50,211 bases of DNA from a virus: the IMG/VR virus record IMGVR_UViG_3300043786_001077, positions 1-50,211 of that record; one strand, 5' to 3'. Position numbers and translations under genes: made by a program. Numbering within the stretch: position 1 is the first letter of the stretch; each line of letters begins with the position of its first letter. Below, one piece after another: positions 1 through 23,737 of the stretch. The notes under the pieces were generated by a model that did not search any database, was not told the origin of the DNA, and saw only the letters and a program-made list of their open reading frames with translations.

Positions 1-127
1 CATCCGGTCGCAATCGTCCCGCCGCCGCCAGCCGACGTGCCGGATTGATACGGGTAATATGGATACGGATACACCGGCCCGCAGCATTCGGGGCACTCGT
101 TGAGATCTTCCCAGCCGTCGGGTGACA
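1..127. repeat. Direct terminal repeat, left copy
   Basis: Bases 1-127 are identical to 50085-50211. A repeat of exactly 127 bases at the two contig ends is what an assembler leaves when it closes a circular or circularly permuted genome with a 127-base word, so I read it as an assembly overlap. It contains no gene start of its own, but the gene starting at 131 on the minus strand runs through it and across the join. Confidence 0.95.
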
Positions 128-131
128 ACAT
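1..131 (-). CDS. 5' part of a hypothetical Tyr/Pro/Cys-containing protein that crosses the contig ends
   Basis: An ATG at 131 on the minus strand opens a frame that runs off base 1 and continues, through the terminal repeat, to the stop at 49694. The whole protein is 173 residues. It starts MLSPDGWEDLNECPECCG, has a Cys-x2-Cys-Cys cluster and then a Pro-Tyr run (PYPYYPYQSG) and a Gly-rich turn. The start lies 8 bases below the stop of the upstream gene (140), as expected in a tight late operon. I do not recognise a family. The position among fibre-like genes suggests a virion-associated or tail-tip protein, which is inference. Confidence 0.7.
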   Translation of the reverse strand, partial: MLSPDGWEDLNECPECCGPVYPYPYYPYQSGTSAGGGGTIATG

Positions 132-139
132 GCCGCGCC

Positions 140-751
140 TTAGTAAGTCCCCGTGTAGCCGTTCGCCACTTGCACTTCAACGCTCATCACAACCGTCTGG
201 CCGCTGTTATTCACCGGCGTGATTGTCCATTGATCGCCGCCCGGCACCCATCGCGTGAAGATGTCCGCGCCGTTGGTCACGACGTCCGATGCGTCATGGC
301 TCACGCGAAAACCGGCCGTCCGGTCAATCGTGATCGTTGCGCTATTGAGGTCCGTAATCTGCACAAATTCGCAACGCGCGCCGGACAATTGCAAACACAC
401 TTGCTGACCGGCAGCGAATCCCGTCCCGCTCGCCAGCACGACCGTTGTCGCACCGGCCGCCCCGCCGCTCGATACGGTCGTCGCGTTGACAGCGACAGTC
501 GAGGAGATGCAATCGTACGAATTGTCGGGATGGATAATCGTATCGTCATCCGTCCGCCGGATCGAGACATACGCGGACCGGGTCAGTGCGGTCGCCGCGT
601 TACGTCCGATCCGCACCAGCACCCACGCGCCTTCCTTGCCCCGCAGGTCGAGCGCAACCGCCGTGCCCGGAGTCGCGGAGGTCGAATACGACGTCGGGGA
701 AATCGCGGTCGAAAAAGTCTGTGCGGTCGGGACCGTTGTTACCGTAGGCAT
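140..751 (-). CDS. Hypothetical beta-rich virion protein
   Basis: A 203-residue protein rich in Thr, Ser, Ala and Val, with no signal peptide or membrane segment. The alternating pattern, for example TTVVLASGTGFAAGQQVCLQ near the middle, suggests a beta-sandwich or fibre-like fold, and the end is VQVANGYTGTY. A GGAGAA ribosome-binding site lies just upstream of the start. It is 2 bases from the upstream gene (stop at 754), so the two are co-transcribed. The place in the late operon suggests a tail-tip, fibre or decoration role; no specific family was recognised. Confidence 0.65.
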   Translation of the reverse strand: MPTVTTVPTAQTFSTAISPTSYSTSATPGTAVALDLRGKEGAWVLVRIGRNAATALTRSAYVSIRRTDDDTIIHPDNSYDCISSTVAVNATTVSSGGAAGATTVVLASGTGFAAGQQVCLQLSGARCEFVQITDLNSATITIDRTAGFRVSHDASDVVTNGADIFTRWVPGGDQWTITPVNNSGQTVVMSVEVQVANGYTGTY

Positions 752-753
752 GG

Positions 754-1212
754 TTATTCATTCTCCTTTCGTGCGGCTTCGACATCCGCCGCCGTGCAAC
801 CGGACCAAAGCGGCTTGCGATTGTCGGCCAGCAACAGCATTTCTTTTTTGTGGACAACGGTCATGATGCCAGCGGCAATCAGGCCGTCGAGCATCGCGAC
901 TACTTCGGGCAGTTGCAGGTCAACCGTTTCAAGCGCAAAAATCGCTTGCACGGTTTTCAGTAAGCCCTTGAACCGCAATTTGTCCTGAATCGTCCCGCCG
1001 GTCAGGTCCGCGACGGGCAGCGAATCAAGGGCCTGCACCATGCCGAGAATCTGCTTCCGGGCCACATAGGCAATCAGTTCGGCTGTCGGCACGAGACCGG
1101 GCTGAGTCTTCGCCGCAAGGGCATTCGCGCAATCCCAATCACGATCCTCGTCGAATGCAACGCGGGCGGCGTGGTCGGGCGGCAGGGCAAGTATGAAATC
1201 GCGGAGTGACAA
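754..1212 (-). CDS. Hypothetical helical protein of the tail/fibre operon
   Basis: A 152-residue, mostly helical, acidic protein starting MSLRDFILALPPDHAARVAF. No catalytic motif, membrane segment or zinc cluster is visible. It sits 1 base after the LamG-protein gene and 2 bases before the next gene, so it is translated from the late operon. Small helical proteins at this position in tailed phages can be chaperones for fibres, but nothing in the sequence proves that. Confidence 0.6.
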   Translation of the reverse strand: MSLRDFILALPPDHAARVAFDEDRDWDCANALAAKTQPGLVPTAELIAYVARKQILGMVQALDSLPVADLTGGTIQDKLRFKGLLKTVQAIFALETVDLQLPEVVAMLDGLIAAGIMTVVHKKEMLLLADNRKPLWSGCTAADVEAARKENE

Positions 1213-1213
1213 G

Positions 1214-2050
1214 TTATCTCCAGTTTAGGGGTGAATCAGGGACGCGATAGCCGATGCGGGAAAGTTGGTAGTCGAGTGCAACTTCCATGGGGGAAAGAGC
1301 GCGATTCCAAATCGATACTTCATCAATGCGGCCGTTGAAAGGGGCGGCTAAATCATGAGTTTGCCCGAAACGTACCGGTTCAAGGCTGAGCGGTATCCCG
1401 GAAACCGTCGCAGTCGCAGAGACACTACCACCGTCCCCAAAAATTGTTTTTGTTGTCCCTCTTCGAGTCATGGTAATTCGGTGCCAAGCGAAATTTGAAA
1501 GTGTCACGTAGGTAAACGGAGCATTAACAATACCGCCGCCCCAGCTTGTCCCTGTGCCCGTTGCTCCATCGGAACCAAGCCAGAACCCGGTAGCAAAATT
1601 TTTATCCACAATTCGGCCAAAATTCCCCAAACCCGGCGAAGTGGCTGAGAAAAAAGTCGCTGACACCGTGAAATCGTTCAATGCGGTAGTAAAAGGAGTG
1701 AGGACATAGTCATTCACACCATCAAACGCCAGACTTGAAAACCCACCGTTAGGCTGCCATCCGCTTGTCGTCGATGGGACCATGTTGATCAACGTCCCAT
1801 GATTCCGCCCCGCCAAGTCTAACAGTCGCGACCCGCCACCGCCAACGCCCGGCGGCGTGAGCCACCAAGCGACCCGTCCACGGTTCAGCGGATGCGCCCA
1901 ATTCACGGCATTTGTGGGATCGACGTAGTTGTAGCGGCGCTGCAAAGAATAGGACAATAACGCGGGCGAAATAGATTCGACGCCCAACCGCTGCCCGCTC
2001 AAAGGCAGCGTCAGACCTTGCAAACCCGCACTCAGTCCGCTCAGTGCCAT
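1214..2050 (-). CDS. LamG / concanavalin-like domain protein, probable receptor-binding or fibre protein
   Basis: A 278-residue protein counted from ATG 2050, chosen because it follows the upstream stop at 2058; the frame is open up to 2074. The core from about residue 65 to 260 has the LamG/concanavalin-like jellyroll pattern: SLAFDGVNDYVLTP, FTVSATFFS, WHRITMTRRG, then NGRIDEVSIWNRALSP near the end, a typical LamG closing motif. Such domains bind glycans. In a phage late operon this suggests host-surface recognition or capsid decoration by weak sugar binding. The family call is from motifs, the role is inferred. Confidence 0.75.
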   Translation of the reverse strand: MALSGLSAGLQGLTLPLSGQRLGVESISPALLSYSLQRRYNYVDPTNAVNWAHPLNRGRVAWWLTPPGVGGGGSRLLDLAGRNHGTLINMVPSTTSGWQPNGGFSSLAFDGVNDYVLTPFTTALNDFTVSATFFSATSPGLGNFGRIVDKNFATGFWLGSDGATGTGTSWGGGIVNAPFTYVTLSNFAWHRITMTRRGTTKTIFGDGGSVSATATVSGIPLSLEPVRFGQTHDLAAPFNGRIDEVSIWNRALSPMEVALDYQLSRIGYRVPDSPLNWR

Positions 2051-2057
2051 GGTCGCC

Positions 2058-2357
2058 TTAGCTGATGGTGACAAGCTGGCCGGGGATGTCGAAACTGACC
2101 TGCTGCGCCGCCGTGTCGGAAATTAGATAGACATCGCCGATGTACTCGAAATCGGCGGGCGACAATTCCGCGACGCCGTTGATGTAGAACCCCGTCGATG
2201 TCGTCACGCCCACCGGACCGTAGTAGCACTTCCCGCTCGTCGGCACGCTGAACTTGATCCCGTGTTTGATCGGCGTGGTCGCGGCGGCGGCGTTCGCGGT
2301 CAACTGCACGGCCGCCGTGCCGACTGTTTTCTGACCGATTGTGCCCTTGATTGCCAT
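2058..2357 (-). CDS. Small beta-rich virion protein (decoration/fibre-like)
   Basis: A 99-residue protein with the pattern VGTAAVQLTANAAAATTPIK, GKCYYGPVGVTTSTGFYING and FDIPGQLVTIS. The block T-VGTAAV-L-T near the start, a YYGPVGVTTSTG or VYFGTVSTVTTSTG block in the middle and a QxVxx(D)IP ending recur in the gene at 47059-47367, so the two are paralogues. Such small all-beta proteins commonly sit on phage heads or tails. The specific role is not known. Confidence 0.65.
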   Translation of the reverse strand: MAIKGTIGQKTVGTAAVQLTANAAAATTPIKHGIKFSVPTSGKCYYGPVGVTTSTGFYINGVAELSPADFEYIGDVYLISDTAAQQVSFDIPGQLVTIS

Positions 2358-2426
2358 GCAAAGCCCCGCGTGTGATGGCCGGTCCCGGCCTTGCCTTCGT
2401 TCTTGCCTTGGCCCGTCCGGACGATC

Positions 2427-3131
2427 CTAGATGCAGTTTGCGGCACACTGCGCGAGCGTTTGATACGGTCCGCTGTTGTAGCCCTCGGGCGGCGTCGTTG
2501 ACTGCACGCAATCGCCAGCCACGCACCAGTACAACGTCTCCCGTTTGCCCGTCTCGTTCGGATCGTACTCGAAGACGGTCGCCGCAATGCCGTTCGCCTG
2601 TATAAGCCACCATTCCGTTTTCTTTTGCAACGTCCCGCCGTCGCACCGAAAATCATTGATCGGCACAACGATGCCATCGAGGATTACCGTGCCGTAGCTG
2701 AACGGATATTCGAACGCGCCACCGACGCCGCCCGATCCTGGCACGATGTAATACTGCGAATCCGCTTGATCGACGGGCCGGACGTAGACGATGCTCCCCG
2801 GCGCGAGGCCTGTATTCCCGTTTGGCTCAATCGCTGGCGTTCGTGTCGGTGTTCCGCCAGACGCTTCAAGGCTATCCTTGCTCCATTGCGTGACGGAGAT
2901 TTTCCCCGCGAGATCGGCGGAAACGTAGACGCGATTCCACCCGTAGGCGGCCCCGATCCGTTCGCCGGTCAACCGCGCGAGATACGTCTCGGGCTTGAGG
3001 TCGGCAATCGACGCGCCCAGCGGACCGGGCCAGAATGCGTTAATGCCCGTGCCCGTGGACCGGTCGAGGGCGGCGGTCGCGTCCGTCGCTCTCGTCAATC
3101 CCGATCGGTTAAATGCGGGCCGTACGTTCAT
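2427..3131 (-). CDS. Hypothetical virion protein with C-terminal cysteines
   Basis: A 234-residue protein. The middle contains YVRPVDQADSQYYIVPGSGG, and the C-terminal part carries several Cys (WCVAGDCVQ, CAANCI) that could form disulfides or bind metal. It ends at 2427, 69 bases before the next start, and its start (3131) is 2 bases from the stop of the preceding gene. It looks like a minor tail or fibre component, but no family is recognised. Confidence 0.6.
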   Translation of the reverse strand: MNVRPAFNRSGLTRATDATAALDRSTGTGINAFWPGPLGASIADLKPETYLARLTGERIGAAYGWNRVYVSADLAGKISVTQWSKDSLEASGGTPTRTPAIEPNGNTGLAPGSIVYVRPVDQADSQYYIVPGSGGVGGAFEYPFSYGTVILDGIVVPINDFRCDGGTLQKKTEWWLIQANGIAATVFEYDPNETGKRETLYWCVAGDCVQSTTPPEGYNSGPYQTLAQCAANCI

Positions 3132-3133
3132 GC

Positions 3134-3541
3134 TTAGATCGTCGCGTCCGGTTTGTCGGGCGTCTGTTCCTGCAATCTCTGCGCGCGTTCGGCCAACGCT
3201 TTCAGCGCTTCCATCGCCTGCACGGCATCTTTCGGCCGGCTCGTCACGACATCGGGCGGGCCGATGATGGTTTTCTTTTTCGGCTTGAAGTCAATCGGTT
3301 TTGTGATAAGGTCCGCGTCAATCAGCAAATGAACCCAGATAATTGTCCACGGTTCATCAAGCCTTCCACGGCATGTATGGTAACTGACGAGCGTAACCTT
3401 TGCGTCCTTCGGATCGATAATGTTTTCGCCGTAAAGGATCGGTTCCGGCAGCGTGAATTTGTCGTTCGACCATTCGCTGCGATAATTTGTCGAATAGCCC
3501 GGCTTGAGAACGGGGACTGTGATTTCGATTTCGTCGGCCAT
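3134..3541 (-). CDS. Hypothetical protein, late operon
   Basis: A 135-residue protein counted from ATG 3541 (MADEIEITVPVLKPGYSTNY). The frame is open upstream to 3676, but that would cover the start of the divergent plus-strand gene. The N-terminal half looks beta-rich. The C-terminal half is helical and charged, with AMEALKALAERAQRLQEQTP suggesting a coiled coil. No motif of known function is visible. Only about 37 bases separate it from the plus-strand gene at 3579, so any divergent control region is very short. Confidence 0.6.
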   Translation of the reverse strand: MADEIEITVPVLKPGYSTNYRSEWSNDKFTLPEPILYGENIIDPKDAKVTLVSYHTCRGRLDEPWTIIWVHLLIDADLITKPIDFKPKKKTIIGPPDVVTSRPKDAVQAMEALKALAERAQRLQEQTPDKPDATI

Positions 3542-3578
3542 GCTTGTTTTTGCCTTGTTTTTCGTGGCAATAACAGGG

Positions 3579-4547
3579 ATGCCGACGACAACGCATAACG
3601 GGGTGTCATTCGAGGTTGGTTCCGAGCCGATGCCGTCGCGGGAAATAGGCGCACGCGAAACGACAGGCCGAGCCAAATTGCACTACACCACGACAACATC
3701 GTTTTACGAGGACGAATGCAATACGTTTGAGAAAGCGATACTTGGTTATTCGACGATTGATACGGTCAATTCAGGCAGATTGAAACGATACTATCCCCTT
3801 CGCTGGCCATATCGTAATCAGGGATCACTTGACGCCTTGTCGTTATCGCTCCCGTCGTTGGGCAAAGTCGCAAAGGAAAATGTCGTTTCGCAATCGACCG
3901 ACGGGCCGGTCGTCAACATGGCCGGATACTCTTATTGGCCGTCCGCTCCTCGATACCATTATGACTGCCAGTTCGGTAGTTTGCCATACACTCGGTTTGA
4001 TACCGATGCGGAAGCGTATACGGGACCGACTCCGCCAAGAGAACTAGGTCGATTTATTCGCGTTTACGAGCAGGCCGTGCCGCGAGAATTCCGCACGCCT
4101 GACTACGGGTTTGTACGAGCCGACAAGCCCGATCAAGAAGTCCTGAAGGTTGGCTTCGTGCCGTTCATTCAGGCCGAAGTGATCTACACTTGGTATCAGG
4201 TGCCGTATCCAAACGGCATCCCGTGGCAGACAATTGAAGACACCTACTTAAAGGTCAACGACGACAATTTCGACGGCGACGAAAACGCCGAAGGATACCT
4301 AGAAGGCACGTTGCTGTTTACGAAAACGGGACCGCTTGATAACTGGTATTTTGGGCCGGGCGGGTTGAAGTATGTCGATGTCATTTACTATTTCACTTAC
4401 AACCCGATCGGCTGGAACAACTACAAATTGGCTGATAATAAAATCGTTCAGTTGTACAGAAAAAATGCTAAAGACAATAACGGGAACCCTATACCGCCCT
4501 ACCAGCCCGCGCCGTTCCCCGACTTGTTTGATTGGAGCAACGGGTAA
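3579..4547 (+). CDS. Hypothetical protein, probable tail-associated, on the opposite strand to its neighbours
   Basis: A 322-residue protein from ATG 3579 (MPTTTHNGVSFEVGSEPMPS). An earlier start at 3504 would overlap the divergent gene by 38 bases. The protein is rich in Tyr, Trp and Pro, for example YTWYQVPYPNGIPWQTIEDT and YFTYNPIGWNNYK, and ends in a Pro-rich tail followed by DLFDW. The aromatic, beta-like composition resembles structural proteins. No enzyme motif is seen. It is the only plus-strand gene inside the tail block, so it probably has its own promoter or was inserted or inverted. Confidence 0.7.
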   Translation: MPTTTHNGVSFEVGSEPMPSREIGARETTGRAKLHYTTTTSFYEDECNTFEKAILGYSTIDTVNSGRLKRYYPLRWPYRNQGSLDALSLSLPSLGKVAKENVVSQSTDGPVVNMAGYSYWPSAPRYHYDCQFGSLPYTRFDTDAEAYTGPTPPRELGRFIRVYEQAVPREFRTPDYGFVRADKPDQEVLKVGFVPFIQAEVIYTWYQVPYPNGIPWQTIEDTYLKVNDDNFDGDENAEGYLEGTLLFTKTGPLDNWYFGPGGLKYVDVIYYFTYNPIGWNNYKLADNKIVQLYRKNAKDNNGNPIPPYQPAPFPDLFDWSNG

Positions 4548-12857: not shown

Positions 12858-15023
12858 ATGGGGATTTCAGGCCGCCTTTACGATGGCGTCATCGCATTTG
12901 CCAAAGCGGTAGCGGGACGCGAGAAGGTTGACAAGAAAGTGGCTTCGCTTCTGGGCGGAACCCCGGCAAGTTGGCGGGCGTGGTCGGGCGATCCGTATCA
13001 GCAGATCATCGAATACCGCAACTGGACGTATACCGCGATCCGCTTTCGTGCGTTGCGCCGTCAGGTGCCGCCGATCGTTGCGCGGTATGTTGACGCGGGC
13101 GAGATCGAGGGCGATCGGGCGGAGCGGCGGAAGGCGTTCACGTTCGGCGGCGCGATGCCAAAAAAGCGAAATATCGTTTCGCGGCAAAAGGCAATCGGAT
13201 CGGGTATCAGTCGGGTCGGTCACGAATTGGAATACCTGCCCACGTCCTCGGCCCCGATGCGATTGTTGCACGATCCGAACGATCCGCAGATTGGCATCGA
13301 CCTGTGGTATATGTGTTCGGTATTCGAGGACTTGACGGGCCGCGTGCATATCTGGAAAGTGCGGGACGGCGCGGGCCGGGTTGTCGAACTGTGGTATCTG
13401 CCCACGCAATGGTGCGATCCGCGACCGGGCGACGGCAAACTGATTAACCAACTGCTCGTTACGATGCCTTCGGGCGGGTCGGTGATCCTTGACGCGGACG
13501 ATGTGATTACAATCGGCGAGCCGTCGCCGTTTGGGTATCTGGCCTGGCAATCGCCGTTGCAGGCACACGGGTTGACGGTCGACCTGAATAACGCTCTGTT
13601 CGTCAGTCGATTCAACGGGCTGATAAACGGATCGCATGTTGGCAGCATGATTAAAGTGCCGTCGTCGATGGCGAATAATCCTGATTCGATGGCGCGCCTC
13701 GAGCAATCGCTGTTGAGCCGGACGGTCGGGACGATCAACTACAATCGGCCATTGATTGCGGAAGAGGGCGCGGAGCTTATCAATCTGACTCCGCAGATGG
13801 AGCTGGCGTTCAGCCAATCCGCGAACCAGATGAGGGACAATATCTTCGCCGCGTTCGATCTTGATGCGTCGGTCATGGGCTACGCGAATGAGGCCACTTA
13901 CGCGGCGTCGGTTGTCACGCAGAAAAACGTGTTCAACAAAGTGGTCAAGCCTTATTGGGAACGGCGTAATGCGACGCTGACCGAAAAACTGCTGAAAATG
14001 GAATTCGGCCTCGACTTGTGTGCGATCAATGAACACAAGACGGAAGAGACGCCGGACGAAAAGGAACGTCGGCTGCGGTTCATGAAGGAATCGGGCGCGA
14101 TTTCGGTCAATGAGATCCGGGTCGAATACGAAAAGGAACCGTATGACGATCCGCGATATGACGAACCGATTGGTTTTGCCGAATACGCTCGTCTAGACGC
14201 TGGCAATCCGAATGACGCGCCCACGGATGACTACGGGCAGACACCGCCGAGCGATTTTAATGGCGGACAAGATATTCTTACCGTTTACAAAAGTTTTACC
14301 GGCGTAATTACCGACGCAATTGGTCGAAAAATTCGTTACGTCAATGGCAAACGTGTCCCCATGGGTGGCGTATCACAAAACGCATCAAGTGCATCGCAAA
14401 GCGATTCAGAACTTTCACAGCAAACAAAAGTAGATACGTTCAAAACAAGAAAGCTGGACAATGATGACATCGAGGCACTAAACGAAGCTGGGGTTATAAA
14501 AAATCAAATAACGTACGACGAGCTCGAAAGGTCAATTCAGCCGTCTACGCCATCTGATTTGGATGGCGAATACATTTATCTTTGGCACGGAACAAGTTCA
14601 ACGGCGGCAAGGAAAATAGCCAAAGACGGAACTATTAAAGAAGGCGAACGAGGCCGAAATGCGACTGCCGATGTAAACCACGCTGCCGAATACCCAGAAT
14701 CTACTGGCGCGGATTGCTTGGTTTTGATAAAAGCCAAAGTCAGCGAAATAGGAATAGACCCAAACGACACAAACAGTAAAATTATTGATGCAGCAAAAAA
14801 TGATATTAACATAGCCAAAAAAATGAGTTTATTCCCTGAAAGTTACGACATAAAAGACAGAAGCTCTTGTTCGATTGGCAGCAACACAATTGTAGCTATT
14901 ATTAATATGCGAGATGGTGTTAGGCGAGAAGAAGCATTTTCATTTATAGAAAAAGGAAATTTAATGGATGCAATTTATAGCGGTGCCACGGTGGAATACC
15001 TTAACAGAAAAGAAACAAAATAA
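12858..15023 (+). CDS. Portal protein with C-terminal ADP-ribosyltransferase-like extension
   Basis: A 721-residue protein from ATG 12858 (MGISGRLYDGVIAFAKAVAG); ATG 12828 is possible. Residues 1 to about 460 are portal-like: YQQIIEYRNWTYTAIRFRAL, IDLWYMCSVFEDLTGRVHIW, ELWYLPTQWC, VIHI-like DVITIGEPSPFGYLAWQSPL and FGLDLDASVMGYANEATYAA. Typical portals stop there. Here a linker (ITDAIGRKIRYVNGKRVP, Ser/Gln-rich) leads to about 150 more residues with YLWHGTSSTAARKIAKDG, RNATADVNHAAEYPES and CLVLIKAKVSE. This is the H...Y layout of ADP-ribosyltransferases (PARP/KptA-like). The extension is clearly AT-richer than the portal part. Confidence 0.8.
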   Translation: MGISGRLYDGVIAFAKAVAGREKVDKKVASLLGGTPASWRAWSGDPYQQIIEYRNWTYTAIRFRALRRQVPPIVARYVDAGEIEGDRAERRKAFTFGGAMPKKRNIVSRQKAIGSGISRVGHELEYLPTSSAPMRLLHDPNDPQIGIDLWYMCSVFEDLTGRVHIWKVRDGAGRVVELWYLPTQWCDPRPGDGKLINQLLVTMPSGGSVILDADDVITIGEPSPFGYLAWQSPLQAHGLTVDLNNALFVSRFNGLINGSHVGSMIKVPSSMANNPDSMARLEQSLLSRTVGTINYNRPLIAEEGAELINLTPQMELAFSQSANQMRDNIFAAFDLDASVMGYANEATYAASVVTQKNVFNKVVKPYWERRNATLTEKLLKMEFGLDLCAINEHKTEETPDEKERRLRFMKESGAISVNEIRVEYEKEPYDDPRYDEPIGFAEYARLDAGNPNDAPTDDYGQTPPSDFNGGQDILTVYKSFTGVITDAIGRKIRYVNGKRVPMGGVSQNASSASQSDSELSQQTKVDTFKTRKLDNDDIEALNEAGVIKNQITYDELERSIQPSTPSDLDGEYIYLWHGTSSTAARKIAKDGTIKEGERGRNATADVNHAAEYPESTGADCLVLIKAKVSEIGIDPNDTNSKIIDAAKNDINIAKKMSLFPESYDIKDRSSCSIGSNTIVAIINMRDGVRREEAFSFIEKGNLMDAIYSGATVEYLNRKETK

Positions 15024-15066: not shown

Positions 15067-16818
15067 ATGCCTATTGACCCCGCCCACGGCCGCGACATTC
15101 CGAGCGGGGCATCATTTGCCCGCGTCGTCGGGCGTTTCCTTGCCCGCACCCGTCAGCGATTTTACGACGCCGTTCGCCAAGGCTATACGCCGAAAATCAG
15201 CCCGATGGACGCGCAGGAACTCGCGGCCGATCTCGTGCCGTTCTATATGCGAGAATTGGAGCTGGGCGCGCGCTGGTCGATGGTTCAATTGAGCAGGCCG
15301 CGCAGTTCGATGATCCGCCTGCCGCGCGGGGTCGCTTCGGCTGAGGGCTTGATCGTCCCGTCTCCCCGTGTTGTCGCAGCACTGACGCGACAACCGGGCG
15401 CGCCGCTTCCGATCATGGAACCGCCAACGCCAACGGCGCGGGTGACAACGCCGATTCCTGGCGGTACGGGCGGGAAGTTTGGCGTTGACTTGTCGCGGGC
15501 GTTCACGTTGTTACAGCCGACGGTCCGGCCCGCTGCCGAGGCAATGGCCACAAACTTCGTGGGCGAGTTGACCGGTACGACACAGCAGAAGGTCCGCGAG
15601 GCGATCCGCGACGGGTTGACGGCGGGCGAGCCGCTGTCGAAGATTCAGGCCCGGCTGATGGGCATCACGGAAGATGTGCCGACGGTGGCGGGGCGTGTCG
15701 AGAAGTTGAGCGTGTTTGATCGGGATCGGGCAATTACGGTCGGCTTGACGGAATCGAGCAGGGCACGCCATCGGGGTCAGGCGACATACGCGCAGTCGCT
15801 CGGATCGTGGGGCCTTGAATACTTGGCCTCGTCGGACGCGTGTGATCTCTGCCTATCGCTAAACGGCAAGCAAGTGCCGCACGGCGAACCGTTTTACGTT
15901 TGGCCGAAGGCACCGGCAGAGTATCGAAATGTTTGGTATCCGCCCAGCCATCCGAATTGCGTCGTCGGAGATACGTTAATTGCAAGTTGCGGCATCCAGT
16001 CGGCTATTCGCGGCATCTACAGAGGCGACGTTGTAACACTTTCGTTTGACGATGGACCGGATTTGACCGTTACCCCAAATCACATGCTCTTGACCGATGC
16101 CGGGTTTCTCAAAGCGGCGGACATTGTGAAGGGCCGCAATGTAATCCGCACACCGCTCGTCGAATCGCATCGTCTTCCAAACTTTAACGGCCCAAATCAC
16201 GACCACGCTCCAGCCTTGGCTCGTGATATATTTGACTCGCTTGCTGTATATAGCGGCGTGCTTTCCAGTAAAATGCCAATTGCCCCCGAAGACCTCCACG
16301 GCGATGCGGCTTTCTGCGATAGCCAAATCAATGTTATAAATGCCAAGGTTCATCTGCGGGATCGTTTCAATTCCGCGAACTTTGAGCCAATCGGCGACAG
16401 CAATTTCATACTTCGAAACATTGCTGGGATTGACGGCTCTTGTCGCGGCGATCTTCAGGCGATGTTCCACGCTTTGCTTTTTGCCACGAACGGCCGCATG
16501 GGCATTGAACGCGAGCGCCATGCGGCTTTCCTTGGGCATATTTTGAAATCGCAGAATGTTGGCTTCACTGCCGTTTCTGATTCGCAGGCCGATCTTTTTC
16601 ATGCAACGGATAATTCTCGGCCTACTGACGCCGATCGACTTCGAGATGCTCAAAACGCTTTGCCCAAGGTCGTAACGACGTCTCAGGTCATCGCAGTCAA
16701 TAGGCGTTTTCATAACGGTCCCGTTTACGATTTTCAAACTGCCGAAACGATGTACCTTGTCGGTCACGGGATTATATCCTCGAATTGCCGTTGTACCGCG
16801 ATCGACGTTTTCAGGTGA
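15067..16818 (+). CDS. MuF-type head morphogenesis protein interrupted by an intein
   Basis: The 583-residue precursor has extein residues 1-297 and 574-583. The extein has the MuF pattern: a helical N-terminus, TTQQKVREAIRDGLTAGEPL, ITVGLTESSRARHRGQATYA, and SSDACDLCLSLNGKQVPHGE with the CxxC pair. The family's closing motif HPNCRC is split by the intein between Asn and Cys and restored by splicing (HPN plus CRCTAIDVFR). MuF proteins act in head assembly and may be ejected with DNA. It follows the portal gene by 43 bases. ATG 15067 is the first good start. Confidence 0.85.
   Translation: MPIDPAHGRDIPSGASFARVVGRFLARTRQRFYDAVRQGYTPKISPMDAQELAADLVPFYMRELELGARWSMVQLSRPRSSMIRLPRGVASAEGLIVPSPRVVAALTRQPGAPLPIMEPPTPTARVTTPIPGGTGGKFGVDLSRAFTLLQPTVRPAAEAMATNFVGELTGTTQQKVREAIRDGLTAGEPLSKIQARLMGITEDVPTVAGRVEKLSVFDRDRAITVGLTESSRARHRGQATYAQSLGSWGLEYLASSDACDLCLSLNGKQVPHGEPFYVWPKAPAEYRNVWYPPSHPNCVVGDTLIASCGIQSAIRGIYRGDVVTLSFDDGPDLTVTPNHMLLTDAGFLKAADIVKGRNVIRTPLVESHRLPNFNGPNHDHAPALARDIFDSLAVYSGVLSSKMPIAPEDLHGDAAFCDSQINVINAKVHLRDRFNSANFEPIGDSNFILRNIAGIDGSCRGDLQAMFHALLFATNGRMGIERERHAAFLGHILKSQNVGFTAVSDSQADLFHATDNSRPTDADRLRDAQNALPKVVTTSQVIAVNRRFHNGPVYDFQTAETMYLVGHGIISSNCRCTAIDVFR
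15958..16785 (+). mobile_element. Intein in the MuF protein, double-coded with an antisense endonuclease gene
   Basis: The 276-residue intein begins with Cys (TGC 15958) as CVVGDTLIASC (block A). It has VTLSFDDGPDLTVTPNHMLL with the TxxH of block B, and ends GPVYDFQTAETMYLVGHG then ISSN before Cys+1 (blocks F and G). The last residue Asn and following Cys are canonical, but the usual penultimate His is Ser. The region between the splicing blocks (about 16140-16660) has no sense-strand endonuclease motif; it is the reverse complement of an endonuclease gene. All 276 codons are open. Confidence 0.88.
15976..16713 (-). CDS. Vsr-like (EDxHD-type) homing endonuclease encoded antisense inside the MuF intein
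   Basis: A 245-residue protein from ATG 16713 (MKTPIDCDDLRRRYDLGQSV); the frame is open up to 16767. Residues 7-45 are a helix-turn-helix (SVLSISKSIGVSRPRIIRCM) as in phage homing endonucleases. Residues 100-175 show the Vsr-like nuclease core: KYEIAVADWLKVRG (E103), GIYNIDLAIAE (D129), VEVFGGNWHF (H147), then SKRVKYITSQGWSVVVIW. This is the layout of EDxHD/I-Bth0305I-type enzymes. The gene lies wholly inside the intein and runs opposite to it. No strong Shine-Dalgarno is seen, so how it is expressed is unclear. Confidence 0.78.
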   Translation of the reverse strand: MKTPIDCDDLRRRYDLGQSVLSISKSIGVSRPRIIRCMKKIGLRIRNGSEANILRFQNMPKESRMALAFNAHAAVRGKKQSVEHRLKIAATRAVNPSNVSKYEIAVADWLKVRGIETIPQMNLGIYNIDLAIAESRIAVEVFGGNWHFTGKHAAIYSKRVKYITSQGWSVVVIWAVKVWKTMRFDERCADYIAALHNVRRFEKPGIGQEHVIWGNGQIRSIVKRKCYNVASVDAANSRLDAATCN

Positions 16819-16842
16819 TTTTTCCCGTTTTTCGCACGCAAA

Positions 16843-16860
16843 AAAATTTCCGGAAATTTT
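16843..16860. promoter_or_regulatory. Operator-like palindrome upstream of the 16.88 kb promoter
   Basis: AAAATTTCCGGAAATTTT is a perfect 18-bp palindrome, 21 bases before the -35 of the promoter at 16882. Its core ATTTCC-GGAAAT resembles the TTTCAGGAAAT palindrome next to the promoter at 23998, so the same repressor could bind both. A terminator role for the MuF gene (a T-tract follows) is the alternative. Confidence 0.5.
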
Positions 16861-16881
16861 CCCTTTTTTTCTCCCGGACTA

Positions 16882-16910
16882 TTGCCAGCCCCGAATATCT
16901 ATACTAAGAT
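16882..16910 (+). promoter_or_regulatory. Sigma70-like promoter for the small zinc-cluster gene
   Basis: TTGCCA (16882-16887), a 17-base spacer and TAAGAT (16905-16910). The expected transcript start is near 16917. It matches promoters at 22148 and 23998 that also have TTGCC at -35 and a 17-base spacer. Confidence 0.7.
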
Positions 16911-16922
16911 ATTCTACATAAC

Positions 16923-16969
16923 ACGAGCAACACGCTCAACCGACGCCCGGCGGAACCGGGCAGGGGAAA
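16923..16969 (+). promoter_or_regulatory. Double-hairpin mRNA leader, copy 1
   Basis: The leader contains GAGC-aacac-GCTC (16925-16937) and a stronger hairpin GCCCGG-CGGAA-CCGGGC (16945-16961), followed by AGGGGAA and the start codon. The same two hairpins, with the shared CGCTCAACCGAC between them, occur at 24041-24077 in front of another small gene. Paired changes keep the stems. It may control translation or stabilise the mRNA. Confidence 0.65.
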
Positions 16970-17224
16970 ATGACAATGAGTCTGCAAATCCTCGGAGTGA
17001 ATGACGATGTCACGACTTGTGAATGCTGCGGCAAGTCCAATCTTAAATTGACCGTTGTACTTTCCGCTGGCGAGGGCATTCAACATTTCGGCCGCGATTG
17101 TGCGGCTAAAGCGATCGCGTTTTCGCGTGGCACACGGCGGAAATCCGCTCATGTTATCGAAGTTGAAGCCAGAAACGCTCAGGCAGGTTATCGACGGACA
17201 GCGGGCGGATTTACGCGAATCTAA
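16970..17224 (+). CDS. Small zinc-cluster phage protein
   Basis: An 84-residue protein; ATG 16970 or 16976 (MSLQILGVNDDVTTCECCGK). It has CxCC near residue 20 followed by LKLTVVLSAGEGIQHFGRDC, so a CxCC...C metal site is likely. Small proteins with this CECCGK...FG.DCA pattern are widespread in phages without a known job. It stands alone between its own promoter and a strong terminator, so it is an independent, possibly highly expressed, transcript. Confidence 0.75.
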   Translation: MTMSLQILGVNDDVTTCECCGKSNLKLTVVLSAGEGIQHFGRDCAAKAIAFSRGTRRKSAHVIEVEARNAQAGYRRTAGGFTRI

Positions 17225-17238
17225 CACGCTGACGCCAC

Positions 17239-17267
17239 GCCCCGGCGACGTGCCGGGGTTTTTCTTT
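17239..17267 (+). terminator. Rho-independent terminator
   Basis: CCCCGG (17240-17245), loop CGACGTG and CCGGGG (17253-17258) are followed by TTTTTCTTT. It ends the transcript of the small zinc-cluster gene and lies before the plus-strand gene at 17288, which would then depend on read-through. Confidence 0.85.
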
Positions 17268-17287
17268 ACCCACACCGGAATCCCACA

Positions 17288-17500
17288 ATGACCACCGCAC
17301 AAAAACAAAAACTTGCCATCGAAATCGTCATGGCCGTTGCGGAGACGATCCGCGAGGCGGGCGAGATCCCGTCCGGCCACCTCTACGCCGGCCTGATGGA
17401 AAAAGGCTGCACGATGGCGCAATACGACAACCTGATTCGCACCTTGATCGAGTCCGGCATCGTCCGCAAGTCGGGCCATATGCTCAAATGGGCTATCTGA
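17288..17500 (+). CDS. Small winged-helix-like protein
   Basis: A 70-residue protein starting MTTAQKQKLAIEIVMAVAET. The helices AETIREAGEIPSGHLYAGLM and TMAQYDNLIRTLIESGIVRK followed by a short strand (HMLKWAI) look like a winged-helix/HTH fold, the last part being the wing. It ends 8 bases inside the 3' end of the convergent terminase gene. It could be a regulator; no family name is certain. Confidence 0.65.
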   Translation: MTTAQKQKLAIEIVMAVAETIREAGEIPSGHLYAGLMEKGCTMAQYDNLIRTLIESGIVRKSGHMLKWAI

Positions 17501-19859
17501 TTCCCCATCCGCCGATAGTCGATTCGACATGCACGGTTACATAGCGCAAGCTGTCGCAATTATGCACTAGGATTCCATTCGCGACGTATTCGCCAGATTC
17601 AGTCGTGAGATTGTAAACCGGAGCAATCCGGTTTGTTTTTTTTACGGAAACGACACGAACAAGAGCAAAACTGTTTGACAGCATACCGATTGCATTTGAA
17701 TTCAGCACCGCAGGACTTGCAATTTCTGGATTCGTCGTCAGCCCCCGAATCTCTTCTTGCTGCTGATTTGCAGTTATTCCCGCAAAACTTGTTTTTACTT
17801 GTGTAAAAACACTCGTATTGCTTCCCGCACTTCTGGCATTGGAGCGAAATCTTTTTTCTGTTTTTAACAATTTCTTTTGCGTGCAATGAATGCCAAGCAC
17901 GCCCTTCAGGCGATCGATGCCACTCCTTAGCTTTTGGCACGCCGTATTTAACAATGATTTCAGCATATAACGCCCTGCGCTCTGGCGACAACGTTTCGGC
18001 GTGATGCTTGGCGTGATCTTCTTTTGTAATCGCACGCAAGTTTGCAGGGTGATTATTTTCAGTATCTTCGTCAATATGGTGGACGTGATAGCCTTCGGGT
18101 ATCGGCCCGTGAAAGTCTCTGTATATTTGCCGATGCAGGTAATCTTTTCCGTGCATTCGCTCGACAATCCCGGCGATGTAGTACTTTCTATCGCTTGTCT
18201 GTTTTGCGTTTGGGTATCGCCGGTACTTTGTTCCGTTGTACTCGATGACAACGGCTTTGCCTGATTCGTATTTCTTGAGTTGTAGTTGTTCCATAAAGAT
18301 ATATATCCTACTTCATCAGCGCCACAGATTATATTGCCTAATTTTTTATAGCCTTGTGTCGTCCATATTGGGTGATCGGAAGTCCCTTCAATTGTTTGGC
18401 CATTGGCAAGCTCTAAACGATATATCTCCGCTGCCGCGTTGGTCATTGCTGAATCTTTTACCGTTGCCATCCCATGCCGGGAAAGCACGCTATCGCCAAT
18501 TTGAACCGATTCGATAGGCGTCATTCCGCGTTGCGTATAAACCATTGTGCCAGCGACGAAACAGCCGTGGTTATTTGCATCCTCGGGGCAATCCTTCCGA
18601 GGATTCCAAACGTAAGACCGCATTTCCTCAATCGTCGATGTCGGTTTACCCTTGGCCCGTAATTTTGCGTCCGGCGCGTGCGTCAATGCCCCTTGTGTGA
18701 TATAGAGCCGGGCGCGTCCGTCCTTCTGGATGCGCAAACGTGACTGCACCTGTTGGATGCCCTTCCGCATATCGGCTTTGTCCGCCATCGTGCAATGTAG
18801 TCGCGAGTGACGGGTGAATGACGCTGCGTTCGTCGGGTCATGGTCGCACACAATCGCCTGCGGGCGCGGTTCGCGTTTTTCCTCAATCTCTTTCGCCGCC
18901 CATGCCGCCACGTCCTCGACGAGGCGTTCCGTCTGATACAATTCGCGATAGAGGTACATCCGCCCGTCGCCGTCCTTCGCCCAAAATTGCAACACCATCG
19001 GATCGTTCCATCCCCAGTCGATCGCCCAATATCGCGGCCACGACACGGGCGGGAGCGGCCCCCCGAATACTTCCTGGCAAGCGGCCGGCGTGAGGATATT
19101 GGTCTTCGGATCGAACGTGTCGTACACCAATCCTTCGGCGGCGGCCCATAATCCCTCAAGCAACCGCTTCCTCATGAACCCGGTGAGCGTGCCGAGTTGC
19201 TTGTCGAGGTATTCGCGCCCGTCCTCCGTCCAATCCTGGCCGTTGTGGAATCGCGGGTTATGTTCGTGCCTCGATTCATGCCCTGATATCAGGCCCGCGT
19301 CCATCAGCCGCTTGAGCCAGTGGTGGTCGTAGGTCGGATTGCAGTCGAGGATAATCTGCCGGAACGGCTTGCCCGCGAGACCGCCGTCGATCTTTTTCGC
19401 TTTCGTGAACTTGGCCCGTAACGCGCGTTTCAGGGAAAGGTATTCATCCTCTTCCAGTTCGGCCGCTTCCTGCACATACCCGCCATTGAATTCCGTGGAG
19501 AATAGCTTTTCGGGCTTGTCCATGCCCGCGCACACGATAACGGACCGGTTCGGCATTTCGTAGTAGTCGCGGGTCTTCCGCATCAGCGGGCGGTTCATCA
19601 GGACCGGCGACGTTTCGCCGAACACGTCATTTTCGAGCGTGACCAACGCTGATTCGGCCAGCGATGCCTTGGTTTTCCGAACGATAAACCAACGGGTTCC
19701 GGGATAGAGGTAGGCGAGGTGGACTAGTTTGAAAAGGCTGGCAAGTGTCTTGCCCGTACCGGCAGGCCCCCACGCGAGTGAGGCGGGCGAACGGTCGCGG
19801 TAATGGTCAAGATTCCCGCCACGGAAAACAGGCGCGGGCAGGATAAGGGGCGCACTCAT
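17493..19859 (-). CDS. terL: Terminase large subunit interrupted by an intein
   Basis: The precursor is 788 residues; without the intein the terminase is 453, the usual length. Walker A is GPAGTGKT (31-38), the probable Walker B/catalytic acid is at GGYVQEAAELEEDE (about 126-139), and the coupling motif is ILDCNP (170-175). The nuclease domain starts with YWAIDWGWNDP (D281), then IVCDHDPTNA. The third acidic motif, NNHG-CDSLRY, is split by the intein after Gly432. It packages DNA with TerS, whose gene overlaps its start by 4 bases. Confidence 0.9.
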   Translation of the reverse strand: MSAPLILPAPVFRGGNLDHYRDRSPASLAWGPAGTGKTLASLFKLVHLAYLYPGTRWFIVRKTKASLAESALVTLENDVFGETSPVLMNRPLMRKTRDYYEMPNRSVIVCAGMDKPEKLFSTEFNGGYVQEAAELEEDEYLSLKRALRAKFTKAKKIDGGLAGKPFRQIILDCNPTYDHHWLKRLMDAGLISGHESRHEHNPRFHNGQDWTEDGREYLDKQLGTLTGFMRKRLLEGLWAAAEGLVYDTFDPKTNILTPAACQEVFGGPLPPVSWPRYWAIDWGWNDPMVLQFWAKDGDGRMYLYRELYQTERLVEDVAAWAAKEIEEKREPRPQAIVCDHDPTNAASFTRHSRLHCTMADKADMRKGIQQVQSRLRIQKDGRARLYITQGALTHAPDAKLRAKGKPTSTIEEMRSYVWNPRKDCPEDANNHGCFVAGTMVYTQRGMTPIESVQIGDSVLSRHGMATVKDSAMTNAAAEIYRLELANGQTIEGTSDHPIWTTQGYKKLGNIICGADEVGYISLWNNYNSRNTNQAKPLSSSTTEQSTGDTQTQNRQAIESTTSPGLSSECTEKITCIGKYTETFTGRYPKAITSTILTKILKIITLQTCVRLQKKITPSITPKRCRQSAGRYMLKSLLNTACQKLRSGIDRLKGVLGIHCTQKKLLKTEKRFRSNARSAGSNTSVFTQVKTSFAGITANQQQEEIRGLTTNPEIASPAVLNSNAIGMLSNSFALVRVVSVKKTNRIAPVYNLTTESGEYVANGILVHNCDSLRYVTVHVESTIGGWGIR
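17559..18563 (-). mobile_element. Intein in TerL with a second gene in another frame
   Basis: The 335-residue intein starts at Cys (codon 18563-18561) as CFVAGTMVYTQRGMTPIESV. It contains IYRLELANGQTIEGTSDHPI with the TxxH of block B, and ends VYNLTTESGEYVANGILVHN before Cys+1. So Cys1, His-Asn and Cys+1 are all canonical, and splicing should restore NNHGCDSLRY. The part between the Hint blocks (about 17660-18330) is Lys/Thr/Ser-rich without endonuclease motifs in this frame, but stays open. In another frame it is an HNH gene. The segment is AT-richer than the flanking extein. Confidence 0.92.
17599..18294 (-). CDS. HNH homing endonuclease nested out of frame inside the TerL intein
   Basis: A 231-residue protein on the same strand as terL but in a different frame, from ATG 18294 (MEQLQLKKYESGKAVVIEYN). 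Residues 52-90 form the HNH site: YLHRQIYRDFHGPIPEGYHV then HHIDEDTENNHPANLRAIT (H72, H73, N81). Two C-terminal zinc fingers follow: CQKCGKQYE...CGNNC (about 152-175) and CKSCGAEFK...CSCSC (about 192-215). This is a complete free-standing phage HNH enzyme. TATAAT (18333-18328) lies 34 bases upstream, with AGGA closer, so it could have its own promoter. Its 3' end reaches into the block F coding region. Confidence 0.88.
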   Translation of the reverse strand: MEQLQLKKYESGKAVVIEYNGTKYRRYPNAKQTSDRKYYIAGIVERMHGKDYLHRQIYRDFHGPIPEGYHVHHIDEDTENNHPANLRAITKEDHAKHHAETLSPERRALYAEIIVKYGVPKAKEWHRSPEGRAWHSLHAKEIVKNRKKISLQCQKCGKQYECFYTSKNKFCGNNCKSAARRDSGADDESRNCKSCGAEFKCNRYAVKQFCSCSCRFRKKNKPDCSGLQSHD

Positions 19860-22633: not shown

Positions 22634-23737
22634 ATGCGTTTATCAATCAATGTCGATCAGTTTTCCCGCGCCGTGCAGACGGTCGCGCCCGTCACGCTGG
22701 CCAGCAACCTGAACCCGATCTTGTCGCAGTTGCGGATATCGACCGACGAGGACGCGGTATCGGTATCCGCGACGAATAACGAACAGACGATTTCGATCAG
22801 GGTCGAGGCGGAAATCCGACAGCCAGGGTCAACCCTTATCAATCCGAAACAAATAGCGGCAATTCTCAAAGAAGGCCGCGACGAGACAGCGAAGATCGAG
22901 ACTGATGGCACGACGGCACTGGTGCGGATCGGGCGGGCGGAATACACGCTGGCCACGACAAGCGACGATGGATACCCGACCGATGACGAGGCGAAGCGGA
23001 AACCGGCATTTTCGATTGACACCGTAAGCCTCAATAAAATGATCTTGGCGACCCGTTACGCGGCCATGAAACAGCAATCCGCACGGTGGGCGACTTCGGG
23101 CATTCTGCTCGAAGCCGAGGACGGTGAGGCTGTCATGTGCGGCACCGACACGAAACGGCTTTCGATTTCCGCAAAGCCCGCTGCGGCATTAAGCCCGATT
23201 ACCCTTGCCGATGCGGTCATTCTTCCGCTGCCTGCTGTCGAATCGCTGCTGAAATTGTGCGAGTGGGGCGAGGTCGTGTGCTGCGATATTGGCAAAACGG
23301 CGCGATTCTATACCGACACGTGGAGTTTCAGCACGTCGCTCGTCTCAGGCCGATTCCCCCCGTATCGGGAGATCCTGCCGAAAAACCATAAGCATGACGT
23401 GACGATCGAGGCCGGCCCGTTCGCATCGGCGATCCGGCAGGCGATGGTCACGGCCGACGTTGACAGTCGTCGCGTCGATTTTGTTTTCCGCAAGGGCGAA
23501 ATCGAATTGTCAGCCACGGGGCCGGATACGGGCCGGTCGCGCGTTGTCTTCGAATGCCCTGGCTGTGAGATTGAGGACTTCGAGATTGCGCTTGACCCGA
23601 AATATATGCTGGATTACCTGCAATCGCAGACGGGGCCGGTGTGCCTGAAAATGACCGATAGCGCCAAGCCCGTCACGCTCAAGGGCGAGTCGAATCAGAT
23701 TTATCTCGTCATGCCGATGACGGCCGAAAAAGGTTGA
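22634..23737 (+). CDS. dnaN: DNA polymerase III beta sliding clamp homologue
   Basis: A 367-residue protein, the normal length for DnaN. It starts MRLSINVDQFSRAVQTVAPV, has NPILSQLRISTDEDAVSVSA in domain 1, then STLINPKQIAAILKEGRDE. Domain 2 starts DTVSLNKMILATRYAAMKQQ and includes ATSGILLEAEDGEAVMCGTD followed by RLSISAKP. Domain 3 ends QIYLVMPMTAEKG, the place of the usual VMPMRL ending. The clamp tethers DNA polymerase and repair enzymes. No polymerase gene was recognised in the window, so it probably works with the host enzyme. Confidence 0.88.
   Translation: MRLSINVDQFSRAVQTVAPVTLASNLNPILSQLRISTDEDAVSVSATNNEQTISIRVEAEIRQPGSTLINPKQIAAILKEGRDETAKIETDGTTALVRIGRAEYTLATTSDDGYPTDDEAKRKPAFSIDTVSLNKMILATRYAAMKQQSARWATSGILLEAEDGEAVMCGTDTKRLSISAKPAAALSPITLADAVILPLPAVESLLKLCEWGEVVCCDIGKTARFYTDTWSFSTSLVSGRFPPYREILPKNHKHDVTIEAGPFASAIRQAMVTADVDSRRVDFVFRKGEIELSATGPDTGRSRVVFECPGCEIEDFEIALDPKYMLDYLQSQTGPVCLKMTDSAKPVTLKGESNQIYLVMPMTAEKG

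Follow-up and report, generated by a model that had tools for sequence, protein, structure and literature searches.

In canonical homing inteins, such as PI-SceI, the endonuclease domain is in frame with the splicing domain, and homing nucleases in inteins are usually assumed to be in-frame domains of this kind. A different arrangement reportedly exists in the fractured genes of Dassa et al. from 2009 (NAR 37:2560, cited in PMC12350094), in which split inteins are said to be accompanied by a free-standing Vsr-like (EDxHD) nuclease. Inteins in the terminase large subunit (TerL) of mycobacteriophages sit in the ATPase domain (PMC5050341). Furthermore, the ShiLan element, an out-of-frame HNH in a phage methylase, is described in a recent paper (Arsenault, Gosselin, and Gogarten, 2025, PMC11855218). 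Here we analyze the window, that is, the whole 50,211-nucleotide stretch of IMG/VR virus record IMGVR_UViG_3300043786_001077, and its relatives, in which nucleases are unfused and share the DNA of the intein at a few hundred phage loci.

Inteins and nuclease frames in the window

The MuF-like minor head protein gene and the TerL gene are convergent, and each contains an insert, the two inserts being about 0.77 kb apart (Table 1). Their junctions, marked by slashes, read HPN/CVVGD...ISSN/CRC in MuF and NHG/CFVAG...LVHN/CDSLRY in TerL, and in both a nucleophile at residue 1, a TxxH block B, a C-terminal Asn, and a +1 Cys are found in the sequence. Among 28 sequences of the MuF intein, C1, T39, H42, and N276 are invariant and the +1 Cys is nearly so. 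The Pfam Intein_splicing match in MuF (0.002) is partial and below the family cut-off; a profile of the intein matches solved inteins at E-values from 2.2e-8 (best) to 3.7e-8, and inteins head the Foldseek list at an E-value of only about 3e-3. The AlphaFold model of the intein frame is confident at the splicing ends alone, residues 131–236 being mostly at about 30 pLDDT. By motif and homology, both inserts are thus self-splicing inteins, their splicing being predicted. Since MuF and TerL are each encoded in one uninterrupted frame, the class of split inteins does not apply to the window. As the original prediction held, the inteins occupy the most conserved motifs of their hosts, HPxCRC in MuF and D-H-x-x-D-A-x-R-Y in TerL.

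Table 1. Coordinates of features in the window and in related loci.
Feature	Coordinates	Strand	Details
MuF-like minor head protein gene, intein-containing	15067..16818	+	583 aa precursor; Pfam Phage_Mu_F 6.5e-7; PHROG 15127 head protein 1.9e-29
MuF intein	15958..16785	+	276 aa, C1 to last Asn, followed by +1 Cys of CRC
MuF intein block B	16072..16083	+	T-P-N-H; coordinates computed
Vsr/EDxHD-type nuclease ORF, antisense	15976..16767	-	263 aa; GTG start 16767, alternative ATG 16713; MTES_1575 8.4e-9 (just below cut-off), DUF559 0.002
Predicted active-site residues E121, D147, E158 (span)	16294..16407	-	in 52 sequences, E121 conserved in at least 90% and D147 and E158 in all
TerL gene, intein-containing	17493..19859	-	788 aa precursor; Terminase_3 8e-6; PHROG 2 terminase 4.7e-32
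TerL intein	17559..18563	-	335 aa, in nuclease motif; Intein_splicing 2.1e-8 (just under Pfam cut-off); TIGR01443 (above its cut-off) and TIGR01445 matches
TerL intein block B	18372..18383	-	T-S-D-H by sequence; T and H invariant here in four TerL inteins
HNH_3 nuclease ORF	17599..18294	-	231 aa, TerL strand, different frame; ATG 18294, weak SD AGGA; HNH_3 3e-16; PHROG 15471 HNH endonuclease 4.9e-31
L352 TerL intein (also L353), N-terminal part	184-2604		+2 frame HNH ORF 629-1636; site and HNH family differ from the window's
L354 intein in terminase-like packaging gene	1926-2585		HNH_3 ORF antisense register 0, geometry otherwise that of Vsr
L356 family A DNA polymerase, three inteins	87-4502		out-of-frame HNH ORFs (619-1401, 1951-2685) overprint two of them

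The antisense ORF spans nearly the whole MuF intein, splicing blocks included, and its codons sit exactly over the intein codons on the opposite strand (antisense register 0), so that only TTA, CTA, and TCA of one frame create stops in the other. In its AlphaFold model (pLDDT 86.9), the N-terminal part is helical and the core is alpha/beta; the best Foldseek match of the model is I-Bth0305I (3r3p, E 9.4e-4, probability 1.00), followed by Vsr (1cw0/1vsr, probability 1.00); the profile match to 3r3p is 4.4e-5. A catalytic fold of the Vsr type is predicted for this ORF from the model. Of a putative E-D-x-H-D set, E121, D147, and E158 are conserved, and the window protein has a candidate His (GGNWH) that is absent from some relatives. 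Mirror motifs are seen at window positions 16290-16300 and 16070-16095: D(F/L)HGD of the intein frame complements AVE(V) of the nuclease, and the conserved C-terminal xYxVxRG of the nuclease is the complement of block B TPNH.

In the TerL intein, the ORF on the TerL strand has, by sequence, an HNH_3 domain. Two unrelated nucleases in two overlap geometries, as originally predicted, are therefore present, antisense in register 0 for Vsr and on the same strand in a different frame for HNH_3. As this holds in the window and in relatives, the class of canonical fused homing inteins does not apply.

Two other genes of the window can be recorded here. At its C-terminus, the portal protein is extended by about 250 aa encoded in AT-rich DNA (14277-15023, +), and a YLWHGTSSTAARKIAKDG stretch of this extension presumably resembles ADP-ribosyltransferase motifs; the extension searched alone had no PHROG match. 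Positions 22634-23737 (+) encode a DNA polymerase III beta sliding clamp, in which each of the three Pfam domains is present.

Relatives, mobility, and a proposed mechanism

Single window proteins used as queries gave no matches in IMG/VR. Scans of IMG/VR and GTDB together with a phage set provided 184 Vsr and 86 HNH loci, some of them from actinobacteriophages (Gordonia, Mycobacterium, Rhodococcus), and many of the loci are annotated merely as "hypothetical" or "head morphogenesis" protein; an alignment of all Vsr sequences proved too diverse, and sub-family alignments were used. In 171 of the 184 Vsr loci, the nuclease is antisense in register 0 with both intein halves within a single open frame, and 62 of the 86 HNH loci are on the same strand, +1, and open. 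At one locus (L208), scored as antisense with the two halves in separate ORFs, an intein half was probably misassigned. Internal antisense stops (65/146) were once considered as signs of nuclease decay, and this reading was dropped because most of them resemble natural starts or ends of nuclease ORFs.

When the N-half of the intein, not the nuclease, was used as the query, 80 of 80 MuF-type inteins had an antisense Vsr; in 76 of these a single open frame holds the two halves, and the other four are cut by contig ends. This set shares some contigs with the nuclease-first survey, and the result covers one intein family rather than all inteins, because the motif used as query, TPNHPxLT, is itself double-coded. 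On the TerL side the survey is small, as the corresponding intein-first search yielded six loci. No in-frame nuclease fusion was found among the 184 Vsr, 86 HNH, and 80 intein-first loci. Thus, overprinting is a general way of building mobile elements rather than a peculiarity of the window, and the general route that had been suggested is borne out by the survey. The two cases are nevertheless not inventions of this genome, a point on which the original reading needs amending: each belongs to an old, widespread family with an inherited geometry, Vsr being always antisense in register 0 and the window-type HNH_3 being +1 wherever the frame is open.

Pairs of related phages give a view of mobility. 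MuF exteins of Snoke (L002) and Ec1-ASingh (L024) are about 91% identical with reciprocally filled and empty intein sites, one having an intein at HPN/C and an empty STI/C site, and the other the reverse. Sedona and Angelicage, whose exteins are about 95.6% identical, have different inteins at one site. Between Snoke and PK1, the inteins differ at about 3% of bases vs. 10–20% in the exteins, and the low intein divergence could come partly from double-coding constraint. The filled and empty sites and the allele replacement seen in these sequences fit homing rather than prove it. Ec1-ASingh, besides its antisense-Vsr MuF intein, has a separate relative of the window HNH with no intein halves detected nearby.

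We consider it highly probable that each element is a homing intein with its nuclease overprinted on the intein DNA instead of fused to it, with splicing, nuclease expression, cutting, and homing as the presumed steps. The MuF or TerL frame crosses the whole intein free of stops, so that the precursor would be made in one piece, and the flanking Hint halves would splice the insert out to let the essential protein mature. The nuclease would be translated separately from its own start, Vsr in antisense register 0 and HNH_3 in a different frame of the same strand. For HNH, initiation might occur internally at the ATG at 18294. For Vsr, a transcript of the minus strand would be needed, and read-through from TerL, whose minus-strand transcription runs towards MuF, may be one source; in a promoter scan for such a transcript, promoter-like sites were no commoner than chance. 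The nuclease would then cut alleles without the intein when phages co-infect, and repair would copy the intein together with the nuclease gene within it. Over the central part of the intein, the host frame is selected for openness and little else, and the nuclease frame bears the constraint at the protein level. Intein splicing would thereby spare the essential gene while the nuclease drives spread, as was originally suggested.

The nucleases might instead serve the phage, in packaging or in the exclusion of rivals, with the inteins as passive shelters. HNH proteins are known as packaging partners of terminase (Kala et al., 2014, as cited in PMC12613952), and a free-standing relative adjoins TerL in PAE1 (L023). 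This reading is unlikely, because there are presence and absence patterns, reciprocal empty sites, and allele replacement exactly at intein borders, and Vsr resembles the homing enzyme I-Bth0305I.

Slightly less probable still is that the same-strand HNH is made by programmed frameshifting as a fusion with the N-half of the intein, that is, as a canonical fused intein in disguise. The constant +1 relation of HNH to intein in 62 loci would suit this idea. It cannot account for the antisense Vsr or for the antisense HNH in L354, and in nearly all HNH frames a start codon is available in frame close to the domain. Shine-Dalgarno (SD) sequences at nuclease starts are weak; an SD-like site occurs in 28 of 60 HNH, vs. 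11% per arbitrary start, a weak comparison that is biased by several candidate starts, and these sites also speak against frameshifting.

Stop codons, codon bias, and the frame under selection

Open frames could arise from GC content or codon bias, in which case one frame in each pair would be spurious. In synonymous recoding of each nuclease with the codon usage of the genome, the intein frame stayed open over the window Vsr in 1.6% of trials (mean 3.9 stops) and over the window HNH in 2.1% (mean 3.4 stops). A chance of about 2% for each leaves some room for this explanation, as does the fact that register-0 antisense frames are often open anyway in GC-rich phages, and the overlaps of the window alone are suggestive, not decisive. 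The judgement that the overlap is beyond chance is therefore based on comparative evidence from relatives.

After clustering at 70% amino acid identity, with clusters that share phylogeny and hence are not independent, intein-frame stops numbered 0 vs. 589.7 expected in 132 Vsr representatives and 0 vs. 217.6 in 49 HNH representatives. A natural control is provided by 15 HNH loci with split inteins, which do not require an open frame: 74 stops were observed vs. 73.7 expected. As zero stops follow from the class "open" itself, the true test is the share of open clusters against the median probability of being open, P(open), and this share is 132/141 vs. 0.031 for Vsr and 49/66 vs. 0.007 for HNH. 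In public phages, tblastn found a Vsr-like nuclease in 125 records. The host frame is open and antisense across the full match, always in register 0, in 20 of 21 Vsr loci examined, the window included; these open loci have 0 forbidden codons vs. about 1–13 expected per locus (summed log10 P = -50.8, ancestry uncorrected). L013, which has no continuous intein frame across the nuclease, has 10 forbidden codons vs. 8.0 expected. AT-rich Vsr loci are open too, and each frame has independent family evidence. The null of recoded controls is rejected, and the explanation by chance or codon bias, already contradicted by these data, retains hardly any probability, in agreement with the argument against chance in the original prediction.

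The position of substitutions tells which frame selection acts on. In exteins of related loci, substitutions are mostly at host codon position 3, while in the intein centre over Vsr they are mostly at host position 1, which is the third position of the nuclease. For example, counts at host positions 1, 2, and 3 for L002/L025 are 73, 41, and 142 in the N-extein vs. 53, 6, and 19 in the intein centre, and those in the intein centre of L004/L018 are 63, 16, and 28. In HNH overlaps, substitutions move to intein position 2, again the nuclease third position: the pair L189/L190 has 1, 3, and 10 in IntN vs. 10, 35, and 3 in the overlap, and the L223/L247 overlap has 26, 85, and 37. This switch of phase indicates that the nuclease frame is under constraint at the protein level and that the intein frame there is mainly kept open.

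Nucleases of these kinds are often found in group I introns of phages. That the inserts are introns removed from RNA can nonetheless be dismissed, since the frames are open throughout, intein blocks, terminal Asn, and +1 Cys are conserved, and a search for catalytic intron RNA gave no Rfam match at E<=0.5.

Origins and comparison with known systems

The two large families use frames that cost few stops. By recoding, the HNH +1 frame is expected to contain 4.2 stops vs. up to 18.4 in other frames, and Vsr antisense-0 contains 6.0 vs. up to 14.4, antisense-1 being equally cheap (5.7). Costlier cases are the +2 HNH in L352 (13.8 stops expected) and the two +2 HNH ORFs in the DNA polymerase inteins of L356 (15.7 and 19.0 expected, none observed). 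Fused forms do occur in the neighbourhood, as the HNH_3 of the third L356 intein is in frame with it. In L354, 1.2 stops are expected, and openness is hence uninformative there. A 138-aa TerL-type mini-intein without nuclease in L355 (2501-2917) is a candidate nuclease-free form.

In the 15 split-intein HNH relatives, the N-half mostly ends ahead of the nuclease match, and the window HNH clusters with split ones in the HNH tree (95/93). The split label requires at least 3-4 changes, which may have run in either direction, on this tree, which is not rooted by an outgroup and is weakly supported at its deep nodes. On balance we lean to the view that homing inteins have three standard architectures, fused, split, and overprinted, that overprinting arose repeatedly, that the two large families settled in low-stop frames, and that split inteins form when the open frame breaks. 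For repeated origin, the geometries to be cited are Vsr antisense, HNH_3 +1, HNH +2 in the TerL of L352, HNH_3 antisense in L354, and another HNH +2 twice in L356. Invasion of a mini-intein by a free-standing endonuclease without fusion, the route originally proposed, is possible, and free-standing, split, and overprinted forms all exist. The Vsr ORF extends over almost all of the intein, splicing blocks included, and so was not simply inserted inside a mini-intein.

The material offers a large-scale system of overlapping genes, both antisense and sense, with split inteins as a built-in control, and makes the origin of split inteins testable. Gene callers usually overlook this whole class of phage nucleases.

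Like canonical homing inteins, the elements have a Hint splicing domain, sit in conserved motifs of essential genes, and encode a nuclease inside the intein; unlike them, they encode the nuclease in an ORF of its own, antisense or out of frame, and not as an intein domain. Fractured genes reportedly share the fold class of the nuclease and its unfused location between intein halves; unlike in them, the host gene here is unbroken, and the nuclease overlaps the intein rather than parting two genes. Split TerL/HNH relatives connect the overprinted and the fractured-gene forms. The TerL intein of the window lies in the C-terminal nuclease motif, in contrast to the ATPase domain for the TerL inteins of PMC5050341.

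The ShiLan element (PMC11855218) is similar in having an out-of-frame HNH ORF in an insertion that leaves the reading frame of the host gene intact, and in its disjunct distribution. It differs in that it lacks a splicing domain and presumably remains in the protein, while the Hint domain is complete here; searches of the paper's text found no mention of an opposite-strand case. No prior description of inteins overprinted by an unfused nuclease was found in the full texts searched, which are largely open-access papers. A 2025 preprint by the ShiLan authors, with "non-canonical architecture" in its title, may already describe part of this, and it limits the claim of novelty together with the out-of-frame HNH of ShiLan. 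Fused and split homing inteins are already known, and the nuclease overprinted on a complete intein appears to be the new feature here.
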